From a virus, in the IMG/VR virus record IMGVR_UViG_3300044527_000986, positions 1-21,614 of that record: 21,614 nucleotides of DNA, one strand, 5' to 3'. The notes below the pieces were generated by a model. That model did no database searches and was not told where the DNA came from. It saw nothing but the letters and a program-made list of their open reading frames with translations. A program made the translations under genes and the position numbers. Positions 12,422 to 18,439 of the stretch are shown here, piece by piece; the stretch's first letter is position 1; every line of letters starts with the position of its first letter.

Positions 12422-12657
12422 TGGCACGCAACCACTACACCACCAACGGCCCGCGCATCGCATCCACGTCGATGCCGGAGCGGGCGCCTGAGAGCTTCAA
12501 CGCCTGGCAGGAGGAGCTGCAATGGGAGCGCGACCTCGAGCGCATCCTCGAGGACTTCAAGTACCAGCTGCGCGAGAAGCTGCGCACGGCGTACTACAAC
12601 AACACGAGGTCACAATCTGTGATGTCAAGTGACCACCAGCGTATCCAACAGTCATGA
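12421..12657 (+). CDS. hypothetical early protein (78 aa)
   Basis: It is 78 residues, MARNHYTTNGPRIASTSMPE with a charged, Trp/Glu/Arg-rich helical middle (FNAWQEELQWERDLERILED). The ATG at 12421 overlaps the previous TGA and is preferred over the GTG just before it. Its stop overlaps the next start (ATGA). No domain recognised. Confidence 0.55.
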   Translation: MARNHYTTNGPRIASTSMPERAPESFNAWQEELQWERDLERILEDFKYQLREKLRTAYYNNTRSQSVMSSDHQRIQQS

Positions 12658-12833
12658 GCAAGTTCAAATACGGCGAGCGGGTGGAAGTGCGGGACGACGA
12701 TGACCAAGATTGGGTAGAAGCCACCTTTGTACAGAAGGTTGTAGACATCACGTACTGGACACAGGAGCCGGACAGCCCGGCGTGTGGCTGGGAGCAAATA
12801 CGCAAGATTGACCCGGACAAAAAGGACGAATGA
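12654..12833 (+). CDS. hypothetical small protein with SH3-like start (59 aa)
   Basis: It is 59 residues, MSKFKYGERVEVRDDDDQDW then VEATFVQKVVD. The KYGERVEVRD... opening with following short strands resembles small SH3-like beta barrels found in many phages. The C-terminus WEQIRKIDPDKKDE matters for the neighbourhood: its codons for IDPDKK recur as a non-coding fossil after the next gene (12971-12988). Overlaps both neighbours by ATGA. Confidence 0.55.
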   Translation: MSKFKYGERVEVRDDDDQDWVEATFVQKVVDITYWTQEPDSPACGWEQIRKIDPDKKDE

Positions 12834-12985
12834 AACGCAGGACACAAACAATCGAAAGTTGCACGCATTGCGGAAAGGTGTTTCAAGATGGTGAGGATTA
12901 TTGGGATGCTGACCGTGGAGATTGCTACTGTGACGAGAATAAATGCGGCTGGGAAGAAGAGTACTATAAGGATTGACCCGGACAA
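12806..12985 (+). repeat. 15-bp direct repeat flanking the zinc-ribbon gene
   Basis: GATTGACCCGGACAA occurs at 12806-12820 and again at 12971-12985, 165 bp apart, bracketing the gene at 12830-12976. In the first copy it encodes part of KIDPDKK at the end of the upstream gene. In the second copy the same frame reads IDPDKK then TGA, directly overlapping the ATG of the following gene. Confidence 0.8.
12830..12976 (+). CDS. small zinc-ribbon-like protein (48 aa)
   Basis: It is 48 residues with CTHC near the N-terminus and CYCDENKC near the C-terminus, four or five cysteines arranged like a zinc ribbon or treble clef. The rest is acidic (DGEDYWDADRGD, EEEYYKD). Such tiny zinc proteins often bind nucleic acid or a host protein; the target is unknown. 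It overlaps the previous gene by ATGA. It is flanked by a direct repeat that duplicates the upstream gene's end, and is less G+C rich than its neighbours, so it looks like a recent insertion. Confidence 0.6.
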   Translation: MKRRTQTIESCTHCGKVFQDGEDYWDADRGDCYCDENKCGWEEEYYKD

Positions 12986-12988
12986 GAA

Positions 12989-13426
12989 ATGAGAACAGCA
13001 CTACAGGTGCTTATCGACTACATCAGCGACGAGCTGGAGCACAACCGCAAGCTGCTCGAGGAGTTCCCACACGTCGCCAACGTGCTCCTGCGTGCCGAAG
13101 AGCTGCTGCCGTACGAGCAGCGACAGCTGGCGGCAAATCCCATCACTAACACCCAAATCCAACCCACAATGTCGGATATCGACTTCACAACCTGGAAGCA
13201 CTGGAAAGAGTTGCCTACACAGGAAACCTGGTGTCTCATCGCTTACCGCTGGAAAGCCATCGGAGACCCTTCGCGCATCAGGTACCAGGTAGATCGCACC
13301 ATCCAAGGTGAGGCCCGCTGGTGGGGCACTGACCCGCTCCGCGGACCCTTCGAGATACTTGGATGGAAACCTTTTGACCCCATCTCCGTACAGGAGGCCA
13401 TCAACCTTGAAACCATCAAGCAATGA
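12989..13426 (+). CDS. hypothetical protein, possibly a fusion of two small genes
   Basis: It is 145 residues. Residues 1-50 are helical and charged (MRTALQVLIDYISDELEHNR...). Residues 61-145 form a different, Trp-rich part with WCLIAYRWKAIGDPSRI, WWGTDPLRGPFEILGWKPF and an ending ETIKQ. Between them lies NPITNTQIQPTM, encoded by an A/C-rich stretch (about 13137-13168) that looks like the leaders seen before other genes, followed by ATG 13169. Either a natural two-domain protein, or two genes joined after loss of a stop, or internal initiation at 13169. No enzymatic motif seen. Confidence 0.55.
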   Translation: MRTALQVLIDYISDELEHNRKLLEEFPHVANVLLRAEELLPYEQRQLAANPITNTQIQPTMSDIDFTTWKHWKELPTQETWCLIAYRWKAIGDPSRIRYQVDRTIQGEARWWGTDPLRGPFEILGWKPFDPISVQEAINLETIKQ

Positions 13427-13575
13427 CACCGGAAACAATCCAAGCCATGCGCGATCTCCGCGCAGAACTGCAAGGCGTAGACAACGCCATCAAAGCCCTC
13501 AACCCGCAGCTGTCCCTTGGCATCGCCATGGCACTCACCCTCATCGACCGACGTATCCATGGGCCAGCCAGTTGA
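13423..13575 (+). CDS. hypothetical small protein (50 aa)
   Basis: It is 50 residues, MTPETIQAMRDLRAELQGVD then a hydrophobic helical end (LSLGIAMALTLIDRRIHG). The ATG overlaps the previous stop (ATGA). It overlaps the following gene start by 17 nt. Function unknown. Confidence 0.5.
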   Translation: MTPETIQAMRDLRAELQGVDNAIKALNPQLSLGIAMALTLIDRRIHGPAS

Positions 13576-13945
13576 GGAGTTCCGGAAGCTGGCAGCGGCG
13601 TACAACATGGCGCCGCACCACTTCCACAAGGACAAGCGTGGCTTCATCATCGTGACCCGGCAGGGCATCGACTACCTCCAGGCGCACCTCGGCATCGTGG
13701 TGACCTTCGAGACGGTGCTCCAGTGGTCCGACCCGGAGGCCGGCCGGTACGTCATCAAGGCCACCGGCACGATGCCGCGCAAGGACGGCAGCCCGCACGT
13801 CATCTCCAGCTTTGGGGAGACGAGCAAGGCCAACAACACCAACCCCTACCCCGTCGCCATGTGCGAAAAGCGCGCGCTGTCGCGGGTGGTGCTCAAGCTG
13901 GTGGGCATGTACGAACTGGGCGCGGTAGGTGAGGACGAATTGTGA
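13559..13945 (+). CDS. hypothetical protein, possible recombination/annealing family
   Basis: It is 128 residues from ATG 13559; an earlier in-frame ATG at 13517 lies inside the previous gene and is less likely. It contains RGFIIVTRQGIDYL, ATGTMPRKDG and a C-terminal region AMCEKRALSRVVLKLVGMY. A conserved Lys-Arg-Ala-x-x-Arg helix near the end recalls phage proteins sometimes grouped with ssDNA-annealing (ERF/Sak-like) recombinases. I cannot confirm this by eye. Its position upstream of SSB-like, initiator and NinG genes is compatible with DNA metabolism. Confidence 0.5.
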   Translation: MGQPVEEFRKLAAAYNMAPHHFHKDKRGFIIVTRQGIDYLQAHLGIVVTFETVLQWSDPEAGRYVIKATGTMPRKDGSPHVISSFGETSKANNTNPYPVAMCEKRALSRVVLKLVGMYELGAVGEDEL

Positions 13946-13976
13946 CAAATCAAACAAACCCTTTAATCCCTCTTTT

Positions 13977-14801
13977 ATGAAAACTTTCTTTGATTACGGC
14001 GCGTCCTCATTTGGAGCGCAGAAGTTGCAGCCGAATGTGATTCATTCGACAAAGCACTACCACTGGTTTAACTATGCCAATGGCAACCGAGACATAAACC
14101 CAAGCGAATACCAAAAACTAAAAAAGAACATATCTGAAAGCGGCCAGCTCCAGCCAATTATGGTAAATGAGCGCGGCGAGGTTATTGACGGACAGCACCG
14201 TCTCGCGGTTTGCAAGGAGTTAGGAATGCCAATCAGCTTTGTTGTTATTCCGGGCACAACAATTCAGACCGCTGTGCATTTGAACACAGCTGGTCATCGC
14301 TGGTCAACACTTGATTGGATTAACTATTACGCAAAACAAGGGAATGATGATTACAAAGAGCTTTTGCAATTTGTAAAAAACAGTCCTTTTAACGTGCGTT
14401 TAAGCGTAATGATTGCCCAAGGCACTTTAACAACAGCTACAACCGACAGAGATACGGCAATGAATATAAAGGCTGGAACTTGGATTTGCAGAAACTGGGA
14501 TATGGCACACGAACGAATGATGCAAATGTCAAATGTGGCTCCCATAATAAAGAACAGTTTTGACCTATATGCAAACGCCCTAATTAAATACAATAACCTG
14601 AAGCAATTTGATTGGAGTCGATTTGTAAGGCAACTAAAAACACACCCTGAAGTATTGCAGAAAGTAGCTGACGGACGACAGGCACTTGAGTTAATAGACA
14701 AGCTCTACAATTACAGAAAAACAAGTAAAGCCGTTCCAATATTGCATCTGTACATGTTGTCTAATACTGGCTGGGCTAAAAAGAACGCTAAAGCCAAATG
14801 A
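13977..14801 (+). CDS. ParB-like N-terminal domain protein, AT-rich moron gene
   Basis: It is 274 residues. Residues 40-95 carry the ParB/Srx-like fold: a PSEYQKLKKNISESGQLQPI helix-strand, then VNERGEVIDGQHRLAVCKEL (the G-x-x-x-D-G-x-H-R signature) and GMPISFVVIPG. The C-terminal two thirds are helical and Trp/Tyr rich without a recognised HTH, so centromere-type partition is unlikely. Phage ParB-domain proteins can be nucleases, nucleotide hydrolases or regulators. The gene has clearly lower G+C (roughly 40% in sampled lines) than neighbours (60-70%) and AT-rich codons (AAA, ATT, TTT), indicating acquisition from elsewhere. Start chosen at ATG 13977, after an AT-rich 31-nt leader; an in-frame GTG at 13929 is less likely. 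Confidence 0.75.
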   Translation: MKTFFDYGASSFGAQKLQPNVIHSTKHYHWFNYANGNRDINPSEYQKLKKNISESGQLQPIMVNERGEVIDGQHRLAVCKELGMPISFVVIPGTTIQTAVHLNTAGHRWSTLDWINYYAKQGNDDYKELLQFVKNSPFNVRLSVMIAQGTLTTATTDRDTAMNIKAGTWICRNWDMAHERMMQMSNVAPIIKNSFDLYANALIKYNNLKQFDWSRFVRQLKTHPEVLQKVADGRQALELIDKLYNYRKTSKAVPILHLYMLSNTGWAKKNAKAK

Positions 14802-14998
14802 TTGAGGAGCAGCTCGGCGTGTGGCTGTGGATCGCAGGCATCCTCGTGCTCGGTTATTTGTTAGTTAACAACATCGATTTGCGCTGGAGATTAGCAAAGG
14901 CAAACGCACGCATCCGCGTCCTCGAGCGCAAGCTGTGGACCAGCGACGTCGACGCCATTCTTGACGAAATCTTAGGCGACCCACATGAGCGAGCTTGA
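14798..14998 (+). CDS. small membrane protein with C-terminal helix (66 aa)
   Basis: It has one hydrophobic segment WLWIAGILVLGYLLV (about residues 9-23) and a basic then acidic helical region (LAKANARIRVLERKLW ... DAILDEILGD). It starts on an ATGA overlap with the ParB-like gene and returns to the G+C-rich codon style of the phage. The location among early genes argues against a lysis role. Membrane anchoring of an early function or superinfection control is conceivable but unproven. Confidence 0.55.
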   Translation: MIEEQLGVWLWIAGILVLGYLLVNNIDLRWRLAKANARIRVLERKLWTSDVDAILDEILGDPHERA

Positions 14999-15266
14999 CG
15001 ACTTCTTCGACGAGGCAGCCCTGGACAGCACCACGCTCATCGAGGTGCGACGTGTTCGCCTCGAGTCACTTATGCAGTGCACTGTCCTGTGGGACGACGA
15101 GGCAACCCTCGACGCCATCATGTACGGGCCGATGGATGACCAGACCTACCACCACCTCAACCTGCGCCTCATAGCGCACCTCGACCGGCCCGATTCACGA
15201 GGCCGATGGACACAGACACAGATGGCAAAGTTTATCAAATCTTTTACTAATGAAAATCACGATTAA
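14985..15266 (+). CDS. hypothetical protein (93 aa)
   Basis: It is 93 residues, very acidic N-terminus (MSELDDFFDEAALDSTTLIE), then LMQCTVLWDDEATLDAIMYG and a more basic C-terminus (RWTQTQMAKFIKSF). It overlaps the previous gene by 14 nt and the next by 17 nt. No family recognised. Placement immediately before the SSB-like gene suggests an early or replication-associated role. Confidence 0.5.
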   Translation: MSELDDFFDEAALDSTTLIEVRRVRLESLMQCTVLWDDEATLDAIMYGPMDDQTYHHLNLRLIAHLDRPDSRGRWTQTQMAKFIKSFTNENHD

Positions 15267-15600
15267 CGGCACCGTGAAGGCGGTGCAAGAGCCCAAGACC
15301 TTCGCCTCCGGATTCACAGTATGCGACGTGCTCATCGAGGCAGGCAGCAACATCTACCCCGTCACGTTCAAGAAGGACGACGTGGATGAAGCCCTGGCAC
15401 TGGTGGCCGAGCATCCGATCACGCTCGAGTGCTGGCTGAACAGCCGGGAGTGGAACGGCCGATACTTCGTGGAGCTCAAGTACGCAGGCAAGCCGGAAGA
15501 GGCACCTGCTCCAGCTCCGGCCAAGAAGCCGCTCGCAGGACGCACCACCAACCGCATGGCACCACCGTCAACCCCAGCGCCCAATGACCTGCCCTTCTGA
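15250..15600 (+). CDS. DUF3127-type OB-fold, SSB-like protein
   Basis: It is 116 residues. It has the DUF3127 layout: an N-terminal OB fold with TFASGFT (17-23), a central strand pattern NIYPVTF, the motif SREWNGRYFVEL (65-76), then a Pro/Ala-rich linker and the tip NDLPF. The acidic-hydrophobic tip resembles the C-terminal peptide with which single-stranded DNA-binding proteins recruit partners. The likely role is ssDNA binding during phage replication and recombination. The next genes (HTH, initiator, NinG) agree with this. Family recognised by motif only. Confidence 0.72.
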   Translation: MKITINGTVKAVQEPKTFASGFTVCDVLIEAGSNIYPVTFKKDDVDEALALVAEHPITLECWLNSREWNGRYFVELKYAGKPEEAPAPAPAKKPLAGRTTNRMAPPSTPAPNDLPF

Positions 15601-15610
15601 CGAAAACTAC

Positions 15611-15844
15611 ATGATAGTCACCAGCATGGAAGCCTTCCTCATCAAAAACTACGGCAGCCTGACTATGGCAGCTGGCAACCTGAAGGTCAGCCCGCAGACC
15701 ATCAATAACTGGCTGAAGCGCAACCCGCGCGGGCTGCTGAAGCACATGCCGACCATGGTGCAGCAGTGCAACGTCACCGAGACCCAAATCATGGGCGAGG
15801 TGCTTTACCACGAGGAGTACCTGCAGAGCGTGGGACAACGGTGA
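15611..15844 (+). CDS. small helix-turn-helix DNA-binding protein
   Basis: It is 77 residues from ATG 15611, or 86 from ATG 15584, which overlaps the SSB-like gene by 17 nt. The segment YGSLTMAAGNLKVSPQTINN followed by WLKRNPRGL is a Cro/phage-type HTH: helix, Gly/Asn turn and recognition helix SPQTINNWLK. It ends directly against the initiator start (GTGA at 15841-15844). In this place it may control early/replication gene expression or assist origin binding. No lysogeny genes are visible, so a repressor role is not supported further. Confidence 0.65.
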   Translation: MIVTSMEAFLIKNYGSLTMAAGNLKVSPQTINNWLKRNPRGLLKHMPTMVQQCNVTETQIMGEVLYHEEYLQSVGQR

Positions 15845-16605
15845 ATAACTACCTCCAGCTACCGACAGAGGCTGCCGCGCACCTGCGGCGGCTCTCTGCG
15901 GTGCAGCTGTACATATGGGCCGATGCGTGGACCTTCCAGCAGAACGGGCAGCAGGCCTACCGCTCCAACGCAAAGCTGGCGCAGATGCTCGACATCTCAC
16001 CGCGCAGCGTGTCACGCGCCATCCAAGGCCTGCACGAGGCCGGCATGTTGTCGGTACGCATCCAGCAGGAAGGCGAGACCATCAAGCGGTACGTCACGGC
16101 GACCCTACCGACACGAACGTCACCCCCCGACACGAACGTCGTGGGGGTACCGACACCAACGTCGGGGGGGTACCGACACGAACGTCATGGGGGTACCGAC
16201 ACGAACGTCCACATAATAGATAAGAAGAATAGAGAAGTTAATAGAGAAGTTAAAAGAGAAACGCGCACGCGCGAGGTTGTTTGGCCTTTCAATTCTGACC
16301 AGTTCATGAATGCCTGGAAGGAGTGGGAGGCCGATCGCCGCGAGCGACGCGTCAAGCCATACACCACCCGCGGCCTCCAAACCGCACTACACCGCCTCCA
16401 ACAAATCAGCGAGTACAATGAAGGAATCGCAATCCGAATTATCTCCCAGTCCATCGCCAACGGATGGCAAGGGCTCTTTCCTCTTAACAACAAGCGGGGA
16501 AATCATCAGCATGACAGACCACGAGGTAAGGACATCACTGCGGACGACCTTGCGCGCCTTGTGGCAAAGCGATACGGGCCTCGCTTTCCCCCAGCCCACA
16601 AGTGA
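15841..16605 (+). CDS. replication initiator (lambda O-like, winged-helix) with internal origin
   Basis: It is 254 residues from GTG 15841, overlapping the previous TGA; a longer frame from 15766 is a shadow of the HTH gene. Residues 1-75 form a winged-helix/HTH-36-like domain (LSAVQLYIWADAW, then NAKLAQMLDISPRSVSRAIQ and GLHEAGMLSV). Residues about 88-142 are a linker whose DNA carries five iterons and an AT-rich tract. From about 143 there is a second domain (FNSDQFMNAWKEWEADRRER ... ALHRLQQIS ... SIANGWQGLFPL) like the C-terminal half of replisome organisers that bind the helicase or its loader. Function: binds its own iterons, opens the adjacent AT-rich DNA and loads the replisome. No polymerase or helicase gene is seen in the window, so host enzymes are probably used. 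Confidence 0.8.
   Translation: MNNYLQLPTEAAAHLRRLSAVQLYIWADAWTFQQNGQQAYRSNAKLAQMLDISPRSVSRAIQGLHEAGMLSVRIQQEGETIKRYVTATLPTRTSPPDTNVVGVPTPTSGGYRHERHGGTDTNVHIIDKKNREVNREVKRETRTREVVWPFNSDQFMNAWKEWEADRRERRVKPYTTRGLQTALHRLQQISEYNEGIAIRIISQSIANGWQGLFPLNNKRGNHQHDRPRGKDITADDLARLVAKRYGPRFPPAHK
16108..16209 (+). repeat. iteron array, 5 copies
   Basis: Direct repeats of a 14-bp core with 5-9 bp between them (four gaps: 5, 9, 9, 9). The 23-bp period is not a multiple of three, so successive copies are read in different frames (PTRTS, DTNV, PTPTS, YRHER, DTNV). Confidence 0.9.
16229..16252 (+). repeat. tandem 12-bp AT-rich repeats in the origin
   Basis: ATAGAGAAGTTA is present twice head to tail (16229-16240, 16241-16252) and a decayed third unit, AAAGAGAAAC, follows. 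These read NREV NREV KRET in the initiator. They resemble 12/13-mer unwinding repeats of other origins in position and composition. Confidence 0.7.
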
Positions 16606-17699: not shown

Positions 17700-17735
17700 A
17701 TGCTCGACATCCCCTCCTACTTCATCCAGCTATGA
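17700..17735 (+). CDS. possible 11-residue leader ORF before the second glycosyltransferase
   Basis: MLDIPSYFIQL begins 2 nt after the preceding stop and its TGA overlaps the ATG of the glycosyltransferase (ATGA), continuing the pattern of coupled starts in this genome. It could be a translated coupling peptide, or a remnant of a lost gene. Length alone gives little evidence. Confidence 0.25.
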   Translation: MLDIPSYFIQL

Positions 17736-18439
17736 ACCACAACGGCCACCACTTCGAGCACCCCAAAGACAGAGATAGGCCGCAAGCGCGCACCACCGTC
17801 ATCTATACCAACTGGAGGCGGTCGTCGCAGCTGCAGAAGATTACTGAGGACTGCTCACGCCAAAGCGCCAACCCCGACATCCTCGTGGTCGACAACGCCT
17901 CCGACAGCCGACACCGCTACGAAGGCATAGCACACCGCATCGTGCGCTACACCAACGAGCGCAAGTGCTGGCAGCGGTGGATGGAAATCCACTACACCAA
18001 CACCGAGTACATCCTCATCATGGACGATGACCTGACGTTCGTAGACCAGGACGTCATCGCCGACTGCGAGCAGTACATGGACGAGAACCCTGGCGTGCAG
18101 GCTATCGGCATCAACGGCGTCAACCTGCTGCCTGGCCGATCGTACTGGCGCAGCATGCACCACCCAGCCAGCCACACAGACACCAAGACCGACATAATCA
18201 AAGGCCGCTTCTTCTTCCTGCGACCCGAGCACATCAGCCTCATGCCACGTGCCCTGGACGATTACAACGACACCTGCGACGACATATGCGTCAGCGCCAT
18301 GCTCGAGAACAAGGTGATACCTGCCATGCTCATGAGCCGCATCACCAACCTCAAGGAAGGACTCGAAGCCCTGCACGCCTCGCAAGACCAACGGCGCAAG
18401 CGCGACGCAGCCGCGGCCCACTACTTCTCCCATGCCTAA
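17732..18439 (+). CDS. second glycosyltransferase (GT-A, family 2-like)
   Basis: It is 235 residues with the GT2 layout: TTVIYTNWRRSSQL, VVDNASDSR (52-60), VRYTNERKCWQRW and the metal-binding YILIMDDDLTF (93-103; DDD at 98-100). Later, GRFFFLRPEHISLMPRALDD and DDICVSAML contain the acceptor-side acidic pair. It should be a metal-dependent nucleotide-sugar transferase. Unlike the first transferase (164-877), it lies in the early/replication region next to HNH and terminase genes. Its acceptor may be DNA, a host surface component or a phage protein; the sequence does not decide. It overlaps the HNH gene by 8 nt. Confidence 0.78.
   Translation: MNHNGHHFEHPKDRDRPQARTTVIYTNWRRSSQLQKITEDCSRQSANPDILVVDNASDSRHRYEGIAHRIVRYTNERKCWQRWMEIHYTNTEYILIMDDDLTFVDQDVIADCEQYMDENPGVQAIGINGVNLLPGRSYWRSMHHPASHTDTKTDIIKGRFFFLRPEHISLMPRALDDYNDTCDDICVSAMLENKVIPAMLMSRITNLKEGLEALHASQDQRRKRDAAAAHYFSHA

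Follow-up and report, generated by a model that had tools for sequence, protein, structure and literature searches.

The 274-aa ParB-like gene found in the window (the whole stretch of DNA analysed, 21,614 nucleotides, positions 1 to 21,614 of the virus record IMGVR_UViG_3300044527_000986) is exchangeable cargo in a fixed slot. At this junction, all 14 close relatives have different content or an empty slot, which bears out the accessory nature of the gene proposed in the original prediction. The gene is read here as an exchangeable single-gene operon cassette that encodes an NTP-binding, DNA-associated ParB-fold protein for early phage-DNA protection or modification handling, and we regard this reading as plausible, if short of probable. 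It would belong to an early operon for recombination and replication in a tailed phage. The coordinates of the cassette and of its surroundings are listed in Table 1.

Table 1. The ParB-like cassette, its parts and the surrounding early genes (positions in the window; residue numbers of the 274-aa protein).
Feature	Position	Strand	Evidence
Left border: conserved 127-aa early gene	13562..13945	+	Protein identity 95–99% with the 14 close relatives, 36% with lillamy gp40
AT-rich leader of the cassette, 31 bases	13946..13976	+	GC 0.32
ParB/Srx-fold phage protein of the phrog_12305 family, 274 aa (cassette cargo)	13977..14801	+	Profile, model, alignment
ParB/Srx core, about residues 18–108	14028..14300	+	N37 R38, G56–I61 (GQLQPI), D71–R75 (DGQHR), N103
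C-terminal all-helical domain, about residues 109–274	14301..14798	+	Alignment; no convincing fold match
Right border: conserved 66-aa gene, ATGA overlap with the cargo	14798..14998	+	Sister-phage DNA similarity back at 14798–14828
DUF3127 / phage ssDNA-binding protein, same early module	15250..15600	+	Profile match
Replication-initiation protein, same module	15841..16605	+	phrog_678, E 4e-17

The close relatives were retrieved with the 127-aa gene of the left border (protein 95–99% identical). Over approximately 0.8 kb of the left flank, they were 92–96% identical to the window and 91–100% identical to each other. Two pairs (L013 and L016, L014 and L015) were the same in the flank compared (100%), leaving 12 distinct records of the 14. 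In all 14, similarity to the window ran to positions 13938–13945 and resumed from 14798–14828, and the slot junctions coincided with gene edges. The slot was empty in L013, L014, L015, L016, and L018 (five records, three distinct). A hydrophobic peptide of 47–48 aa, which judged by eye is presumably membrane-bound, occupied it in L011 (together with a second small ORF), L019, L020, L021, and L023. The slot contained a C5-cytosine methyltransferase in L010, L012, and L017 (PF00145, E 3e-45 or better) and an N4/N6 methyltransferase in L022 (PF01555, E 3e-27; GC 0.42). The stop of the left gene sat within ATGA in 14/14 relatives, at the point where the window has the 31-base leader. When 15 records (4–26 kb, partial) were searched with profiles, the ParB-like family was found in the window only, PF00145 in three records and PF01555 in two, and none of these partial records held two of the three families. 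No other viral contig with the window gene at the slot junction was found in a search that may omit near-identical records. When the DUF3127 and NinG genes were used for scans, with part of the short loci inspected, no new close contig covering the slot was recognised. An assembly error behind the window arrangement is unlikely.

Related insertions were observed at corresponding and neighbouring places. An HNH gene (GC 0.44) lay at the place corresponding to the slot in L024, in L029 the 127-aa gene was immediately preceded by an N4/N6 methyltransferase gene, and a methyltransferase was found one gene past the slot in L020. In L013 (position 7224) and L016 (position 1823), an HNH gene with 39% identity to the L024 cargo was located between the DUF3127 and HTH genes; with this insertion, the operon has a further cargo slot behind the SSB gene. 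The C5 methyltransferases of L012 (6381–7613, 411 aa) and L010 (6381–7271, 297 aa) were alike at their ends and different in the middle, and the middles are perhaps exchanged target-recognition regions. Elsewhere in the window, positions 12604–13127 were also variable, with an unbroken match in only two (L014, L015) of the 14 relatives, and a small cysteine-rich ORF was noted by eye near 12829. The first half of the replication-initiation gene (15842–16226) had no DNA similarity in L012, L013, L016, L021, and L023, and the rest of it was 87–91% identical at the protein level, so that the DNA-binding half of Rep appears to have been swapped in those five relatives.

The cargo starts with ATG, and its stop overlaps the start of the next gene (ATGA at 14798). 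Two small genes separate it from the SSB gene. The 127-aa gene on its left matched phrog_22961 at E 0.002 only, and a Pfam search to E 1 gave no family; an 'ERF-like' label for this gene was dropped, as the family searches (Pfam, phrog) give it no support. The gene had been called a moron. In the strict sense, with its own promoter and terminator, this name is unsupported: neither signal was found, in consensus scans that are weak evidence. These gave 0 sigma-70-like and 0 terminator-like sites in 13700–15050, where the promoter types of the phage may differ from the consensus, and 0 Bacteroidota-type promoter motifs in the whole window. Searches for junction repeats, RNA elements, and tRNA gave no Rfam match, no tRNA, and short imperfect repeats inside the gene only.

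The G+C content of the gene and of its AT-rich leader was indeed markedly lower than that of the neighbours (0.42 and 0.32 vs 0.55–0.65 in the neighbouring genes), the 3 kb of flanks having a GC of 0.58. Along the sequence, GC was 0.635 at 13746–13945, 0.323 in the leader (13946–13976), 0.445, 0.440, 0.405, and 0.389 in the segments of the gene, 0.550 at 14798–14997, and 0.615 at 14998–15197; both boundaries were sharp, the left one more than the right. The GC3 of the gene was 0.45, and that of other window genes 0.59–0.92, a range that leaves out one out-of-frame entry (g8717?, 10 stops, GC3 0.48). When the protein was recoded with the codon usage of the window, GC reached 0.541: of the deficit of 0.17 relative to other window genes, approximately 0.05 came from amino acids and the remainder from synonymous codon choice. 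The composition and codon-use profile suggested as a check thus confirmed the deficit as a mostly synonymous one.

The claim that the composition boundary marks recent transfer was unsupported as argued. In 40 of 44 dereplicated loci (taken from the best 80 of at least 443 viral-contig members), the GC of the homologue was below that of its flanks, with a mean difference of −0.054 (n = 44) vs +0.015 for control genes of 150–500 aa in the same loci (n = 232). In 30 of the 44 (from the same best 80 of at least 443), no other gene of the locus had a relative GC as low as the family gene, and the window gene was only 1.2 SD below the family GC trend. Annotated phage and plasmid records supplied six homologues, of which five had a GC below their flanks and one (Schiekvirus EFP01) above. 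Five loci in phages of approximately 50% GC (L116, L184, L186, L187, and L188) had deficits of −0.16 to −0.20, at least as large as that of the window gene. Low GC is a trait of the phrog_12305 family, and composition alone is therefore no proof of recent transfer. A recent transfer from an AT-rich donor, argued from composition alone, was rejected as proof for the same reason, and it is the slot comparison, not composition, that shows recent gain or loss.

A homologue in the same position in a distant relative, with the same composition, had been named as evidence against transfer, and Flavobacterium phage lillamy largely provides it. The gene order there is a homologue of the 127-aa gene (36% identical), the ParB-like gene, and a DUF3127 SSB gene (25%), and the ParB-like homologue has a GC a little below that of its flanks (−0.035). 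A close donor did not emerge: among matches covering at least 80% of the protein, the best were only 25–34% identical, and the query P0001 alone gave no match in viral contigs or genome contigs. A tree placed the window protein in no supported group and indicated no donor; the nearest among the members taken was L111 (34%).

The window gene does not stand alone; its product is a near-full-length member of the phage family phrog_12305. Residues 17–253 of the protein matched positions 5–241 of the 271 in the family profile (E 2.4e-35), and the same profile matched 45/45 members of the alignment (A2). Homologues were found in Flavobacterium phages, Streptococcus phages, Enterococcus Schiekvirus, a 735-kb uncultured phage, and two plasmids with phage genes. 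The architecture of phrog_12305 proteins such as lillamy gp41 is two-part, like that of the window protein, and in lillamy the neighbours on both sides are homologous; however, these relatives are only 24–35% identical to the window protein, and the window copy is in a polymorphic slot. In an alignment-based scan, at least 443 relatives were confirmed among the 599 pattern matches listed for viral contigs and at least 25 among the 585 listed for genome contigs, which may include prophages. A profile scan of 198 Bacteroidota genomes gave two matches, a marginal one and one in the centre genome, itself picked as a carrier. The family sample consisted of the best 80 of the at least 443 viral-contig members, dereplicated at 75% identity to 44. 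F31, N37, R38, I70–R75, N103, W109, Y126, G167, Y244, and N245 were invariant in the 45 aligned members, the invariance of I70–R75 (DGQHR) in L111–L190 being partly built in, since the motif was the search pattern. DGQHR was also present in 8/8 members of a second alignment (A1), composed of the window protein and seven proteins found with it by tblastn, where no pattern was used. In the open-access PMC literature, no paper was found on the function of the phrog_12305 family or on its alternation with methyltransferases.

The predicted N-terminal ParB-like domain was confirmed by the family profile (E 2e-35) and by structural comparison. The AlphaFold2 model, made from the 45-row alignment, had a pLDDT of 88 and a pTM of 0.81, and it matched CDP-bound ParB (7bnk_B) with a VIA Z of 11.2 and 1.9 Å over 86 residues (21–108). 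The top 25 Foldseek matches were ParB, Noc, KorB, PadC, pNOB8 ParB, or sulfiredoxin (E 7e-4 to 1). Pfam ParB_N (PF02195) and TIGR00180 were below their cut-offs (15.0 vs 26.3 bits and 19.5 vs 58.45 bits, respectively). In the profile alignment with ParB 4umk, DGQHR fell on AGERR and N103 on the Asn of ENIQR; the ENxQR stretch of ParB is what we take to be box III. The nucleotide-pocket positions were kept, namely DGQHR, the box III asparagine, and P60–I61 of box I, and from these conserved motif positions NTP binding by the window protein is predicted. Canonical ParB, Noc, and KorB share the N-terminal fold and the positions of box II GxxR and box III Asn with the window protein, but it is below the family cut-offs and ParA, a ParA-binding motif, an HTH, and a dimer domain were unrecognised. 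The GxxR arginine motif is described as box II, mutation of its arginine as abolishing NTP binding, and the ParB fold as able to bind CTP, ATP, or GTP (PMC12704722).

Outside its own family, the closest profile was that of phrog_498, a DNA methyltransferase (E 7e-11, residues 33–103), which represents phage ParB-MTase fusions; the window protein, in contrast, is stand-alone and without a methyltransferase domain. The PADLOC MTase_II profile was matched at E 5e-7. In local hhalign comparisons of the core only, DndB (prob 94.8) scored above ParB (86.8) and GmrSD (76.7), the groups comprising 9/13 DndB, 10/16 ParB, and 11/13 GmrSD loci. DndB/DGQHR proteins share the DGQHR motif with residues 71–75, but the core alone aligns, and the window protein had no Pfam DndB match at E up to 1; nine of the 45 family members (drawn from the best 80 of at least 443) matched this profile at E up to 0.1. 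GmrS of type IV restriction (GmrSD_N, PF03235) has a DGQQR-like motif and gave a weak core match in 36 of the 45 members, but the window protein had no HNH (GmrD) domain and no GmrSD_N match at E up to 1. DpdB is described as a ParB-like ATPase of DNA-modification systems (PMC12839542).

The C-terminal domain was, as predicted, unrecognised: no convincing match was obtained in Pfam or PDB, and the domain is common to the phage family, with W109, Y126, G167, Y244, and N245 invariant in the 45 aligned members. Its structure was predicted as suggested (residues 104–274 alone, pLDDT 89), and among the PDB chains compared no match exceeded Z 3.8. The best VIA match was human MTERF4 (Z 3.8), BrxU reached 2.9, and the central domain of Noc (7nfu_B) gave Z 3.2 and 4.2 Å over 74 residues, inside noise. 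The family profile match to ParB 4umk extended to profile position 162 (E 1.6e-4). Weak matches to HTH_17 and HTH_54 were obtained in one of 45 members each and none in the window protein, and a canonical HTH in this domain had no PDB-sequence or hhalign support. From the model, a degenerate ParB HTH is possible. Another reading is that the protein senses nucleotides and regulates transcription of the early operon, in the manner of DndB and KorB, both of which control genes in an NTP-dependent way (PMC12704722). DndB was the best of the three local profile matches, but no HTH was recognised in the C-terminal domain, and the operon exists in sister phages without the gene and so does not need it as a regulator; we consider this role highly unlikely.

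The gene neighbourhood was examined within two genes of the 44 members; proteins of less than 80 aa were dropped, 135 neighbours were kept, and the 25 commonest families per library were considered. The 135 neighbours (of members from the best 80 of at least 443) included Erf (11), replication-initiation (9), DUF3127 (7), primase/helicase (6), exonuclease (4), and C5 methyltransferase (3). Most were not methyltransferases (PF00145 in 3/135), and no methyltransferase family besides PF00145 was present among the 25 that were listed of the 38 Pfam families of the neighbours. By tblastn with three methyltransferase queries, a methyltransferase-like gene was found in 21 of the 80 family loci (best 80 of at least 443; approximately 2–11 kb each; no control set). 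The neighbours in Schiekvirus were nucleotide-metabolism genes. In L112, L119, L120, and L148, whose upstream gene was 50–54% identical to that of the window, the ParB-like gene lay between the HTH and rep genes, and in L113 it lay before rep. The position of the ParB-like gene in operons of this kind has therefore varied.

The prominence of Erf, SSB, Rep, helicase, and exonuclease genes among the recognised family neighbours agrees with a replication or recombination accessory factor, in which an NTP-gated ParB-like clamp or organiser would operate alongside the annealing protein, SSB, and Rep and have no link to restriction. ParB, Noc, and KorB, which are CTP-dependent DNA clamps (PMC12704722), were also among the best fold matches. 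Clamping, however, needs DNA-binding and dimer domains, none of which was recognised in the window protein, and sister phages have the same module without the gene, which is dispensable there. We hold the accessory role to be a possible but somewhat unlikely one. As for a ParABS-type partition protein of a plasmid-like prophage, relatives are annotated as 'ParB-like partition protein', but the original observation that no partner ParA is seen was upheld by a profile search (PF13614) of the window record, and ParA was likewise absent from 44 of the 45 family records searched, many of them fragments. A ParA-binding motif was not found in the protein, nor was a parS-like site detected by consensus in the window, whose record may be incomplete. 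With neither ParA, ParA-binding motif, nor parS-like site in these partly fragmentary records, partition was rejected as a function, its probability being close to negligible. Two family-2-like glycosyltransferase genes were also observed in the window (17732–18436 and 137–874; PF00535, E 6e-8 and a sub-threshold E 4e-4, respectively), and their products could act on DNA bases or surface sugars.

In the preferred reading, the ParB-fold protein would bind NTP and DNA and work early in infection on phage DNA during replication and recombination; its most likely task would be to shield that DNA from host restriction or to deal with its modification state. The cassette itself would probably be exchanged when sister phages recombine at the conserved flanks. 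Protection from restriction or a modification role is suggested by the DNA methyltransferases that can occupy this slot in sister phages and by the recurrence of the ParB fold with methyltransferases and in modification and restriction systems (ParB-MTase fusions, DndB, DpdB, GmrS). Phage ParB-fold proteins fused to N6_N4 methyltransferases are reported as frequent (PMC12704722), ParB-like domains also occur in the Dnd, Dpd, and GmrSD systems (PMC12839542, PMC4619093), and in plasmid leading regions ParB homologues are described, together with SSBs and methyltransferases, as anti-defence genes (PMC7736820). The slot can contain a hydrophobic peptide as well and is frequently unoccupied, and the same location is therefore no proof of the same function; we infer both DNA binding and a counter-restriction role of the window protein. 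More specifically, the protein may counter restriction without methylation and so stand in for the swapped-out methyltransferases, e.g., by NTP-dependent DNA coating or as a GmrS/DndB-like decoy poisoning type IV enzymes. We think this version decidedly unlikely; if true, it would represent the reverse strategy to that of phages that carry a methyltransferase.

Of the host-takeover, nuclease, or defence role considered in the original prediction, the part related to defence or nuclease activity is possible; no nuclease domain was recognised with Pfam. A ParB-like nuclease or nickase attacking host DNA or competing phages would be in line with reported ParB-fold DNases (Osa, GmrS, Bce_0392; PMC5512222) and with the HNH genes in the corresponding and neighbouring slots of relatives. 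The lack of a Pfam-recognised nuclease domain and the nucleotide-pocket motifs retained in the core argue against it, and we judge it unlikely.

The exchange of methyltransferases and endonucleases in near-identical phages is already published: in cryoconite phages, methyltransferases and homing endonucleases were gained, lost, or varied at fixed places (PMC7468147). For these flexible-gene islands, a map legend includes a ParB gene, which the passages on the exchange do not name as swapped cargo (PMC7468147), and a ParB-like protein in such a slot adds modestly to this picture. Phages repeatedly carry orphan ParB-fold proteins, and no role was found assigned to the phrog_12305 family. A slot in which a ParB-like gene alternates with DNA methyltransferases in close sister phages is a natural experiment; it points to a testable function, restriction evasion, and the sister phages form a matched comparison set. 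These slot contents suggest that the window gene is an interchangeable early gene that may help the phage to cope with host restriction.
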